This document shows, piece by piece, positions 21,271-28,620 of a stretch of DNA of 40,147 nucleotides. The position numbers were made by a program, and so were the translations under genes. The notes beneath the pieces are model-generated. The model had not been told where the DNA came from. It saw only the letters and a list, made by a program, of their open reading frames with translations, and searched no databases. Source of the DNA: Candidatus Brocadiaceae bacterium (lineage in GTDB: Bacteria > Planctomycetota > Brocadiia > SM23-32); the NCBI GenBank assembly GCA_003551305.1, contig PUMJ01000104.1, positions 1-40,147 on the forward strand, read 5' to 3'. Position 1 is the first letter of the stretch. The number at the start of each line of letters is the position of its first letter.

Positions 21271-21335
21271 TCGTTCCCTATATTATTATAGTTCACAGGG
21301 CACAGGACCGAAAACGCTTGACACACTGAGGTGCA

Positions 21336-21816
21336 GATGGCGCAGGTAACGCAACACCAGGGTAAGCTGAACGCCGAGGGCAAACGCTTTGCGCTTGTGG
21401 TGAGCCGCTACAATGAGTTTTTCTCCAGCAGGCTGCTCGGCGGGGCCGAGGACTGCCTGCTCAGGCACGGCGCGGCCGAACAGGACCTGGAGGTCTTCCG
21501 CGTGCCGGGTTCTTTCGAGATTCCCCTGGTCGCCCACAAGGTTGCGCAGAGCGGCAGGTTCGACGCCGTGGTTTGCCTGGGCGCAGTTCTCCGTGGCCAG
21601 ACCACGCATTTTGATTTCGTTGCGGGCGAGTGCGCCAAAGGGGTAGCCCGGGTGAATCTGGAGACGGGCGTGCCGACCATTTTCGGCGTCATCACGACTG
21701 AGACCATCGAGCAGGCTGTTGACCGTTCCGGCGCCCGTGCAGGCAACCGCGGCGCCGAAGCCGCCCTGGCGGCCATCGAAATGGCCAACCTCCTGGAGGA
21801 CATCACGTCCTGCTGA
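21336..21816 (+). CDS. ribH: 6,7-dimethyl-8-ribityllumazine synthase
   Basis: [30 protein letters not shown]...[18 protein letters not shown]...[60 protein letters not shown] listed from 21331; the ATG I read is near 21336. Confidence 0.92.
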
Positions 21817-21884: not shown

Positions 21885-23153
21885 TTGAGAAAAGAAACGC
21901 AAGCCCGGGAACTAGCCCTGCAGGCGCTCTACCAGCGTGACGTGGTCAGCAATCGCACGCTGGAGGAGCTGATCTGCTTCTGTGAACGCAGGGCCCCCGC
22001 CGACGTGCTGCCCCTGGCCGACCGCCTGGTGCGCGGCTGCATCGAGCGGCAGGAGACCCTCGACAAACTCATACGGCGCACGGCCCAGAACTGGAAGCTG
22101 GAACGCATGGCCGTCAGCGACCGCAACATACTGCGCCTGGCGGTTTACGAGATGCTGTTCCGGCCCGACACCCCCGCCAAGGTGGCCATCAACGAGGCCA
22201 TCGAACTGGCCAAACGTTACAGCACCGAAGGCTCCCCCACTTTTGTCAACGGGGTGTTGGACAAGATCTACAACTCGCACATCGCCAACAGGATAAAGCC
22301 CGATCCGCAGGCGCGGGCGGACCTGCACGTTCACTCGACTGCCTCCGACGGCTCGGTGGCGCCCGAAGACCTGCCGGCCTTGGCCGCCCGCGCCGGCCTG
22401 AGCGCCCTGGCCCTGACCGACCACGACACGCTGCAGGGCATGCGGGCTGCTCAGAAGGCCGCCGCAGACCACGGGGTGACCGTAGTGCCTGGCGTCGAGC
22501 TGACCGGCTATGCCCGGTCGGCCCATGGTGACGGCGAGGTTGAGTTGCACGTCGTCGGCCTGTATGTTGATATGGAGGACGATGCGCTGGCCGGCCGCCT
22601 GGAGGAGTTGCGAGCGGCGCGGGCCGAACGCGTGCTGCAGATTGCCGAACGGCTGCGGGAACTGGGCAAGGACATCAGCGGTGAGGGCGTCCTCGCACGG
22701 GCCGGCGGTGAGTCGGTCGGGCGTGTGCACGTGGCCCAGGAATTGGTCAAGCGCGGCGTCTGCCGGAGCGTGGGCGAGGCGTTCGAAAACTACCTCGGAG
22801 CCGGCTGCCCCGCTTACGTCCCCAAACAGCATCTGACTCCGGCCGAAGCCGTCAAGCTCGTGCGCGCTGCGGGAGGCTGTGCTGTGCTGTCTCATCCCGG
22901 CCTGCTCCAGGACATGGAGATGTTTCTGCCCGAGCTGTTGGAGGCCGGACTGGATGCCCTGGAAGTCCACTACCCCCGGCACAGCCCGGACGCGGAGAAG
23001 GAGTTGATGGACCTGGCAGCGATGTACGACCTGCTGGTCAGCGGGGGCAGCGACTACCACGGCGACGCTAAACCGGACATCCACCTCGGCCAGGAGGCCG
23101 TCTCCTTCGTCGAGCTGCACAAGCTGGAACAACGCGCCCTGGCGCGGGTCTGA
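21885..23153 (+). CDS. nusB: NusB transcription antitermination domain fused to a PHP-domain phosphoesterase (YciV/RNase AM-like)
   Basis: One 422-aa ORF with TTG start and in-frame TAG 9 nt upstream. Residues ~1-140: [19 protein letters not shown]...[53 protein letters not shown] (NusB); then linker and [42 protein letters not shown]...VLSHPG...[12 protein letters not shown] (PHP). Confidence 0.9.
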
Positions 23154-23193: not shown

Positions 23194-24174
23194 ATGTGCC
23201 CCTTTGGCCTGTTCAGCAAGAAGGAGAAACCCGAAGAGGACAGCGGCCCCCTGGAGGAAGCCTCACCCGGCTTGCTGGGCAAGCTGCGCAACGGCCTGGC
23301 CAAGACCCGTCGCAAAGTGTCGGGCGGCCTGCGCTCGGTGCTGTCCCTGCATCGTTCCATAGACGAAGAGTTGCTCGAGGAACTGGAGGAGCAGCTCTAC
23401 CTGGCTGACGTTGGGCCGCGGGCCGTCATGCGATATTGCGAGGAACTACGCCAGGCGCACAGGGACGGCCACATCCAGAATACCGACCAGGTCATGGATT
23501 TCCTGAAAGATCTGATGCGCGACGACCTGAGCGACTGGGACACGGAACTGCACCTTCCGGAGGAGGGCCCCGCCGTTATCATGGTGGCCGGCGTCAACGG
23601 CTCGGGCAAGACCACCAGCATCGCCAAGCTGGCCAGCCGTTTTGTCAGGAGCGGACAGCGCGTGCTGCTGGCGGCCAGCGATACCTTTCGCGCGGCCGCC
23701 ATCGAGCAGCTCGAGATATGGGCTCAACGTGTCGGCGCCGACATTGTGAAGAACGAGAGCGCCGACCCCGCGGCCGTTGCGTTCGACGCGGCTGAGAGCA
23801 CCCTGGCGCGCGATTACAACGTGCTCATCATAGACACCGCCGGCCGGCTCCACACCCGGCGCAACCTGATGCGCGAACTGCAGAAGATACACCGTGTTGT
23901 CGGCCGCAAAATACCGGGCGCCCCGCACGAGACGCTGATCGTGCTGGATGCCACCACCGGGCAGAACGCCATCAGCCAGGCCATCCAGTTCAACGAAAGC
24001 ATCGCGTTGAGCGGTATCGTGCTGGCCAAGCTGGACGGTACCGCCAAAGGCGGGGTCATTTTCGGCATGAAGGACCAGATAGAACTCCCCGTCAAGTTCA
24101 TTGGCATCGGCGAGGGCGTGGACGACCTGCTGCCCTTTGAGCCGGAGCCCTTCGTAGAGGCCCTGTTCGACTGA
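23194..24174 (+). CDS. ftsY: Signal recognition particle receptor FtsY
   Basis: GVNGSGKTTSIAKLASRF...AASDTFRAAAIEQLEIWAQRVGADIV...LIIDTAGRLHTRRNLMRELQKI...LDATTGQNAISQAIQFNE...LAKLDGTAKGGVIFGMKDQIELPVKFIGIGEGVDDLLPFEPEPFVEALFD. Confidence 0.97.
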   Translation: MCPFGLFSKKEKPEEDSGPLEEASPGLLGKLRNGLAKTRRKVSGGLRSVLSLHRSIDEELLEELEEQLYLADVGPRAVMRYCEELRQAHRDGHIQNTDQVMDFLKDLMRDDLSDWDTELHLPEEGPAVIMVAGVNGSGKTTSIAKLASRFVRSGQRVLLAASDTFRAAAIEQLEIWAQRVGADIVKNESADPAAVAFDAAESTLARDYNVLIIDTAGRLHTRRNLMRELQKIHRVVGRKIPGAPHETLIVLDATTGQNAISQAIQFNESIALSGIVLAKLDGTAKGGVIFGMKDQIELPVKFIGIGEGVDDLLPFEPEPFVEALFD

Positions 24175-26304: not shown

Positions 26305-26452
26305 ACGCACTTGTGCTGCCCACCTGCTTTGGCGCATCAACCGAGCGACCGCTGCTTGCCGCCCGGCGCCTGAGCCCCTGGCATATCAGTTGCACCCTTC
26401 TTCCGCAGTTCAATATGTGACAACGCGGGTGACCACCTGGGGAGGACTGATA

Positions 26453-27463
26453 ATGCAACTCGTGCAACGCCGTGGCCAGATCGTGGTTCTGGCTCCAATG
26501 CTCTTCCTTGTGGCGGCGGCCATCCTGATGCTCACCGTGGACGTGGGGCGGATTGTGAACGGCCGGGCCCGGCTGCAGAACGTGAGCGATGCCGCCTGCC
26601 TCGCGGCCACCCAGGTGCTTCTGCGGGAGCGCATCGCGGGCACCGACGAGGAGACCGCCCGATCTCTGGCCGTGGCCGAAGCCGAGAGGCTGCGCAACGC
26701 CAACTGGCCGGAGGCGGGCATTCAGGTCGAGTTCGGCACGGTTGACAGCAACGGGGGATTCACTGCCGTGGACGAGGAGACGCCCGCCTGGGCCACTCGC
26801 GTCCATGCCACGCGCAATGCAGATGCGCCCGGGGGCGAACTGGAGCTTTTCTTCGCTCCCCTGATGGGGATGAACGGCACGAGTCTGGCCACAACGGCCA
26901 ACGCCCAGATCGCCGCTGACATATCCGGGGTCGTCCGCGGCCTGCGGCCGTTTGCCATACCCCAGCACCGGATACCGGACATAGGCGAAGAGATGGTCTT
27001 CTACCCGGGTGACGAAGAGACCTACGATGAGGGGCTGGGTCATGACCAGATAGTCCCCGGCAACTGGGGTCTGTTGAACCTGAACAGCGGGTCTTTCGGC
27101 TCCGACGAAGTGAGGGAGTGGATTGAGCACGGGTACAACATGCCTTTCCTGATTGACCCGGAGGCGGGCTCCAAATGGGTGGACGGCGGGCCGGGTTTCC
27201 GCGCCACGATGAACAGGCCCCTCCAGGACCAGGTGGGCAACAGCTTCCTGATGGTCGTCTACGACGAGGTCATCGGCAGCGGCTCGAACGCGCAGTTCCG
27301 CTGCGTCGGTTTCGTCAGGGCTACCATCACGGGGGCCAGGCTTGTCGGCAACAACCCCTACGTGCGCTGCCGCATAGAGGACATAGAGGCCCTCCGGGAC
27401 GTGGTGGCCGGTGCCGGCGGTTTCGAAAGCCCGAATGTGGTCAAAGTCCAACTCATGTGGTAG
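26453..27463 (+). CDS. TadG/TadE-like pilus-assembly-family protein (copy 1)
   Basis: MQLVQRRGQIVVLAPMLFLVAAAILMLTVDVGRIVNGRARLQNVSDAACLAATQVLL...; RRGQ plus a single TM plus the D-x-GR-x4-R-x-LQN-x-SDAA-x-LAA motif typical of TadG N-termini. Confidence 0.8.
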   Translation: MQLVQRRGQIVVLAPMLFLVAAAILMLTVDVGRIVNGRARLQNVSDAACLAATQVLLRERIAGTDEETARSLAVAEAERLRNANWPEAGIQVEFGTVDSNGGFTAVDEETPAWATRVHATRNADAPGGELELFFAPLMGMNGTSLATTANAQIAADISGVVRGLRPFAIPQHRIPDIGEEMVFYPGDEETYDEGLGHDQIVPGNWGLLNLNSGSFGSDEVREWIEHGYNMPFLIDPEAGSKWVDGGPGFRATMNRPLQDQVGNSFLMVVYDEVIGSGSNAQFRCVGFVRATITGARLVGNNPYVRCRIEDIEALRDVVAGAGGFESPNVVKVQLMW

Positions 27464-27612
27464 CGCGGCGGTGGCGGAGGAGGAGCGGAGCCGGCGTGAC
27501 CGCGCTCATGCTTCGCAGGAGCGCGCGGGGCCCTGCCGTCAGGCATCCCGGGCGATCTCATATTGCGACACTTTTCCAAGACCACGTGAAATATCATCCG
27601 GAAGGACCGATC

Positions 27613-28620
27613 ATGGAAGGCGATTTGCGCAGAGGTCAGATAATCGTGCTCGCGCCCGTGATGTTCCTTGTGGCGGCGGCCATCCTCATGCTCACAGTGG
27701 ACGTGGGACGGATTGTGAACGCCCGGGCCCGGCTGCAGAACGTGAGTGATGCCGCCTGCCTGGCCGCCGTCCAGGTGCTTCTGCGGGAGCGCATCGCGGG
27801 CACCGACGAGGAGACCGCTCGATCTCTGGCCGTGGCCGAAGCCGAGAGACTGCGCGACGCCAACTGGCCGGAGGCCGGCATAGAAGTCGAGTTCGGGGAA
27901 CTCGACGGCAACGGCGGTTTCGCTGCCGTTGATGAGGAAACGCCCGCCTGGGCCGCCCGTGTCCACGCCGCTCGCAATGCGGACGCTCCCGGCGGCGAAC
28001 TGGAGCTCTTCTTCGCCGCCCTGGCCGGTCTGGATAGCTGCGAGGTCGTCACAGAGTCCAGGTCGCAGCTTGCTCGCGGTGTCCACGGCGTGTTGCGCGG
28101 CTTGCGGCCCTTCGCCATCCCCCGGGAGAGCATCCCTGACATCGGCCAGGAGATGGTTTTCTATCCCGCCGGCGACGGGGACTGCGACGGACTGGGCGAT
28201 GACCAGGTGGCGCCCGGCAACTGGGGCCTGCTGAGCCTGGACGGCTCGTCGCTCGGAACGAACACCCTGCGCGAATGGATCGAACACGGTTTCGACAAGC
28301 CCTTTGTCATTGACCCCGAGGCCGGGTATAAGTGGGTTAATGGAACGCCCGGCTTCCGCGCCGCGCTCAACAACCCCGTCAGGGACCAGATCGGCAACAG
28401 CTTCCTGATGGTCGTTTACGACGAGGTGACCGGAACCGGCTCCAACGCCCAGTTCCGCTGCATCGGTTTCGTCCGGGCCACTATCACCGGCGTCCGGCTG
28501 ACGGGCCAGAACCCGTACATCCGCGCTGAAATAGACGAACTGGAGTCTTTGCGCGACCTGGTAGCGGGGGACGGGGGTCACATCAGCCCCAACGCGCTGA
28601 AGATCCAGCTTGCCTGGTAA
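27613..28620 (+). CDS. TadG/TadE-like pilus-assembly-family protein (copy 2, tandem paralog)
   Basis: MEGDLRRGQIIVLAPVMFLVAAAILMLTVDVGRIVNARARLQNVSDAACLAAVQVLLRERIAGTDEETARSLAVAEAERLRDANWPEAG; near-identical N-terminus to copy 1. Confidence 0.8.
   Translation: MEGDLRRGQIIVLAPVMFLVAAAILMLTVDVGRIVNARARLQNVSDAACLAAVQVLLRERIAGTDEETARSLAVAEAERLRDANWPEAGIEVEFGELDGNGGFAAVDEETPAWAARVHAARNADAPGGELELFFAALAGLDSCEVVTESRSQLARGVHGVLRGLRPFAIPRESIPDIGQEMVFYPAGDGDCDGLGDDQVAPGNWGLLSLDGSSLGTNTLREWIEHGFDKPFVIDPEAGYKWVNGTPGFRAALNNPVRDQIGNSFLMVVYDEVTGTGSNAQFRCIGFVRATITGVRLTGQNPYIRAEIDELESLRDLVAGDGGHISPNALKIQLAW

Follow-up and report, generated by a model that had tools for sequence, protein, structure and literature searches.

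NusB binds boxA together with S10 (NusE) and enters the rRNA antitermination complex (PMC10250234, PMC6614801), and in E. coli Tyr18 and Glu81 belong to the pocket with which it holds NusE (PMC9820117). Known NusB proteins are stand-alone proteins of about 140 amino acids; a NusB-fold domain also occurs in RsmB/Fmu, where it is N-terminal to an rRNA methyltransferase. RNase AM of E. coli is a processive 5'-phosphate exonuclease which is also active in deFADding. It carries three Mn ions held by His13, Asp20, His45, Glu72, His83, His198, Asp255 and His257, and the substitution D20A disrupts its activity. The 5'-phosphate is accommodated in a cavity formed by Arg107, Arg110 and Arg141, Phe161 stacks on the base and Arg201 contacts a mimic of the scissile phosphate (PMC9410882). 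RNase AM participates in 23S processing (PMC10250234) and is a recent addition to a field in which the link between bacterial rRNA 5'-end maturation and transcription is poorly understood.

The window, a stretch of 40,147 nucleotides from a Candidatus Brocadiaceae bacterium, encodes a protein in which these two kinds of domain are joined (21885..23153, + strand). Translation and the comparison with fused homologues bear out the first-pass annotation in that the gene is a single unbroken frame of 422 amino acids which codes for NusB, a linker and a PHP domain; it starts with TTG, where the aligned position in relatives is ATG, and stops with TGA. The NusB domain (aa 1-133, 21885..22283, +), as delimited by profile matches and the alignment of fusions, is complete: Pfam NusB PF01029 covers residues 6-129 (2.3e-38), and the NCBIfam equivalog TIGR01951 is matched above its cut-off (141.6 versus 88.35 bits). 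An interdomain linker (aa 134-143, 22284..22313, +) leads into the PHP catalytic domain of the COG0613/RNase AM/CV1693 type (aa 144-404, 22314..23096, +), which was assigned from profiles and Foldseek and contains the motifs DLHVHS, TDHD, PGVE, SHPG and GSDYH listed earlier. Pfam PHP covers residues 146-210 (3.5e-12), and residues 144-404 give full-length matches to both NF041577 (3',5'-nucleoside bisphosphate phosphatase, 1.3e-57) and NF047791 (RNase RNM, 1.2e-52). Both scores are below the equivalog cut-offs (195 versus 400 bits and 178.9 versus 375 bits, respectively), NF041577 being the highest-scoring NCBIfam family for this half. The AlphaFold2 model of the fusion has a mean pLDDT of 88 and a pTM of 0.69, with low confidence confined to residues 137-141 of the linker. 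The linker had been described as very short, which holds for the roughly 10 residues in the window protein but not for its relatives, where it is 17-68 residues long and variable in sequence. In Foldseek the N-terminal half retrieves NusB structures including the NusB-NusE-boxA complex 3r2c, and the PHP half retrieves BAD_1165, which is the best match, V. cholerae RNase AM, CV1693 and E. coli RNase AM. Since both parts belong to known families, NusB-PHP is classed as a new architecture of a known kind, and it is a real and conserved one. An assignment to RsmB was rejected, since TIGR00563 reaches 37 versus 269 bits and matches the NusB-like part only; the window protein shares with RsmB/Fmu the position of the NusB fold in front of an enzyme, but its N-terminus is a true NusB and its enzyme is a different one with no methyltransferase.

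The NusB half resembles described NusB proteins in its full-length domain, in a fold that matches boxA-bound NusB, in being the single NusB copy of the window's genome and in the boxA-like sites carried by the rRNA operons of relatives; the C-terminal enzyme sets it apart from them. Tyr18 and Glu81 of the E. coli NusE-binding pocket have Tyr16 and Asp79 as their counterparts in the window protein, an equivalence read by hand from the alignment, and Tyr16 and Asp79, the latter a conservative change from Glu81, are invariant among 25 fusions. Elsewhere, five Verrucomicrobiota genomes (G206, G209, G212, G215 and G218) have a NusB match within an open frame of 323-347 amino acids, and NusB may there be extended or fused to another part.

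In the PHP half, alignment with RNase AM places His148 and His150 at 22326..22334, Asp155 at 22347..22349, His180 at 22422..22424, Glu205 at 22497..22499, His222 at 22548..22550, His337 within 22893..22904 and Asp390 and His392 at 23052..23060 (all + strand). His148, Asp155, His180, the bridging Glu205, His222, His337, Asp390 and His392 correspond to the ligands His13, Asp20, His45, Glu72, His83, His198, Asp255 and His257, and His150 to His15, which we take to be a ninth metal position of the PHP type and count as a ligand. All nine ligands are thus kept, which makes the metal site complete, and they are invariant in 26 fused sequences. The 5'-phosphate pocket is likewise retained on the + strand, with Arg246 and Arg249 (22620..22631) for Arg107 and Arg110, Arg280 (22722..22724) for Arg141 and Phe300 (22782..22784), invariant in 25 fusions, for the base-stacking Phe161; the three arginines and the phenylalanine do not vary across the fused sequences. 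The one noted active-site residue of RNase AM that is changed is Arg201. Its place, within 22893..22904, is taken by Leu340 in the window and by Leu, Val or Thr in all fused forms, and in the alignment it is never Arg in any fused or adjacent PHP protein. Given the retained metal ligands, arginines and stacking Phe, the PHP half likely recognises a 5'-phosphorylated nucleic-acid end, the exact substrate being uncertain; it could instead act on small nucleotides such as pAp or nano-RNA. The earlier comparison with YciV/RNase AM stands for the family, the fold and the metal site, but not for the curated RNase RNM cut-off and Arg201. Like RNase AM/YciV/Rnm (7ug9, 9etk) the PHP half is a full-length PHP domain with an insertion region, and unlike stand-alone RNase AM it is below the NF047791 cut-off, has Leu in place of Arg201 and is fused to NusB. 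CV1693 (2yb1, a 3',5'-nucleoside bisphosphate phosphatase) and BAD_1165 (3e0f) have the same fold and metal site, with Arg and Asp, respectively, at the Arg201 place; both are stand-alone proteins, whereas the window's PHP is fused and scores below the family cut-off.

The fusion is widespread in the window's class, Brocadiia, which holds Ca. Brocadia and Ca. Scalindua. It is continuous in about 64-66 of the 77 sampled genomes, a count made up of 54 single stop-free matches across both domains, 10 cases confirmed from the DNA and 2 probable ones; records of Ca. Brocadia carolinensis and a Ca. Scalindua sp. are among the carriers. Translation of the locus's own ORF verified 43 fused loci, all with the same single frame and none with a stop or frameshift at the junction, and relatives thus encode the fusion rather than always separate proteins. 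Exceptions within the class are found in f3, f4 and f8: the genes are adjacent yet separate in two genomes of f3 and in one each of f4 and f8, and a further f8 genome has nusB and the PHP gene unlinked. A full-length RNase AM-type PHP protein other than the fused one is absent in 18 of the 20 genomes searched; the other two, G000 and G004 of the window's family, each have one further unfused paralogue. Such extra genes were seen in this family in G000 (C67:1297-2046, L156), G004 (L165) and G001 (L166), and the paralogue is about 37% identical to the fused PHP and branches as a separate clade of the PHP tree.

The gene context of the fusion is conserved. In the window ribH (21331..21816, +) lies directly upstream and ftsY (23194..24174, +) directly downstream, and ribH precedes the fusion in all 43 fused loci, while ftsY follows it in 42 of them. 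The order in the class is ribH-nusB-PHP followed by ftsY, and in other groups ribD and/or ftsY are next to the pair. A contig scan, which selected loci with both domains near each other and hence gives no frequency, found nusB and PHP as neighbouring ORFs in many Omnitrophota and Verrucomicrobiota loci and in one Auribacter locus, often with just a few bases from the stop of nusB to the PHP domain. Of 78 Omnitrophota genomes sampled without selection, 49 contain both nusB and the PHP gene; the two are adjacent in 37 of the 49, with no fusion demonstrated among the 78; among 59 unselected Verrucomicrobiota genomes adjacency was seen in one. Planctomycetota outside the class have adjacent genes in families f42 and f54 and unlinked genes in the others examined. 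Because separate ORFs adjoin in Omnitrophota and the gene order is conserved, the association of nusB with the PHP gene is probably older than the fusion. Two apparent fusions, in G179 (Omnitrophota) and G041, were rejected since stops interrupt the junction on translation, and the genes are separate ORFs. In a Nitrospirota record (L089) nusB lies about 1.5 kb from a PHP gene that groups with the nusB-linked PHPs, which suggests that a linked PHP gene exists outside PVC/Omnitrophota. The record L067 is titled Planctomycetales bacterium but may be mislabelled: in the PHP tree as well as the concatenated one it falls within Omnitrophota, whose gene order it shares.

PHPs linked to nusB, whether adjacent or fused, and unlinked PHPs show strong clustering in the PHP tree, and in the concatenated NusB and PHP tree the fused forms occupy one region, in which six adjacent rows are interspersed (support 86/95). 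A strictly monophyletic group of fused forms was rejected over all rows (AU p 0.015), but not after removal of the unfused f8 row and of three rows with long branches (p 0.12). Both a single fusion followed by splitting in f8 and two to three fusions are possible.

The 16S gene is absent from the window's own assembly, and the boxA evidence comes from relatives that have the fusion. In 12 of 12 genomes of the class with a 16S gene, the sequence TGYTCTTTK or a one-letter variant is found 104-174 nucleotides before 16S. A boxA-like site falls between positions -160 and -95 in 11 of 13 leaders, where dinucleotide shuffles would give 0.19, an enrichment that is somewhat inflated by a slight loosening of the pattern after inspection. 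A second boxA-like site is located 48-123 nucleotides before 23S in 10 of 12 genomes (in 11 of the 12 when the pattern is relaxed), as E. coli too has a second boxA upstream of 23S (PMC10250234). In the six genomes checked, this site follows tRNA-Ile and tRNA-Ala. All 23 genomes searched have RNase E/G, and RNase J is above the cut-off in none of them. E. coli has RNase E/G and RNase AM and, to our knowledge, no RNase J, and the fusion-bearing genomes are like it in having RNase E/G and no RNase J above the cut-off.

The preferred reading, with a probability of about one half (0.52), is that of a bifunctional protein: its NusB/S10 half would keep the other half, an RNase dependent on a 5'-phosphate, close to the boxA of nascent pre-rRNA, where this RNase would trim 5' ends. 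As a dimer with S10, the NusB half would bind boxA both in the leader of the pre-rRNA and in the spacer ahead of 23S, and would join the rRNA antitermination complex. For the PHP half we predict an exoribonuclease like RNase AM and CV1693 in type, with three metal ions, 5'->3' polarity and dependence on a 5'-monophosphate. Ends with a 5'-phosphate would arise through RNase III and RNase E/G while the tethered domain is at the transcript, and the pre-rRNA 5' ends would be trimmed during transcription. We infer RNA as the substrate, the binding of boxA and S10, and the functional coupling of the two halves, and the fusion suggests, short of proof, that rRNA synthesis and trimming are physically coupled. 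The idea of the first-pass annotation that the fusion could tether a trimming nuclease to the antitermination complex is partly supported. This tethering is supported by the spread of the fusion through the class and its use of the only NusB of the window's genome, by the adjacency of the genes across PVC/Omnitrophota and the conserved 5'-phosphate pocket, and by boxA-like sites before both 16S and 23S in genomes with RNase E/G and with no RNase J above the cut-off. It is weakened by the missing Arg201, the equivalog scores below cut-off and the equally good fit of BAD_1165, by a linker that is short in the window protein and variable elsewhere, and by the fact that gene order alone could have produced the fusion. 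The main doubt is over the substrate of the PHP half, pre-rRNA or small nucleotides, and over any benefit of the fusion beyond co-production.

In a possible, if rather doubtful, alternative the PHP half is a housekeeping phosphoesterase of the bulk cytoplasm, with pAp, very short RNAs or FAD caps as its targets, and the fusion arose from adjacent, near-overlapping ORFs and at most fixes stoichiometry. The bisphosphatase family as top match, the structural fit of CV1693 and BAD_1165, which equals that of RNase AM, the lost arginine and the unconserved linker all agree with this, and since few bases separate nusB from PHP in many adjacent pairs, one lost stop could have fused the genes. However, a passive fusion does not readily account for an architecture kept across many families of the class with the sole NusB copy, nor for a gene order retained over several phyla, and with no RNase J above the cut-off there is a vacancy for a 5'->3' RNase. 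A single site of RNase AM reportedly handles both short and long 5'-phosphorylated RNA, and activity on small substrates would thus be compatible with RNA as a substrate. A second alternative, unlikely as it stands, is that the tethered PHP domain digests the excised leader and boxA RNA from the 5' end, thereby freeing NusB/S10 rather than maturing rRNA. The boxA-like sites are in the part that is removed, so that NusB would stay on the leader fragment, and the conserved 5'-phosphate pocket would suit such a substrate; the primary transcript, however, has a 5' triphosphate, and RNase AM is not known to act on such ends. It is a serious variant because leader cleavage separates boxA from the rRNA end, and for the same reason tethering would help trimming of the pre-16S end only if both RNAs stay in the complex. 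That an assembly or frameshift artefact joined two separate genes, as the fragmented draft state of the window's genome (298 contigs) and the separate adjacent ORFs of Omnitrophota might suggest, is refuted for practical purposes by relatives sharing the same continuous fusion in the 43 translated loci and in complete single-contig chromosomes of the class.

The preferred reading, trimming by a tethered RNase, can be extended tentatively, with the balance somewhat against the extension, to a dedicated factor that processes rRNA during its transcription. The Brocadiia antitermination complex would then have a built-in 5'->3' exoribonuclease, which boxA would bring to the leaders of both 16S and 23S and which would take the place of RNase J; in Omnitrophota and other relatives the separate nusB-PHP gene pair would encode the same module as two proteins. 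A boxA-binding factor and an RNase AM-like enzyme in one chain across the anammox class make a natural argument for joint action, which is strengthened by the matching conserved gene pair in related phyla, and the fusion offers a single construct on which the coupling becomes testable. If true, an RNA role would be assigned to a PHP subfamily that has few characterised members. No paper on NusB with a PHP domain or on such a fusion was found in the open-licence literature, which is weak evidence of absence as most subscription papers and database annotations lay outside the search. Further along the window, at 26390-28620, two tandem ORFs have near-identical N-terminal parts (LTVDVGRIVN.RARLQNVSDAACLAA.QVLLRERIAGTDEETARSLAVAEAERLR); by eye they are TadE/TadG-like pilus or envelope proteins, and the pair looks like a recent tandem duplication.
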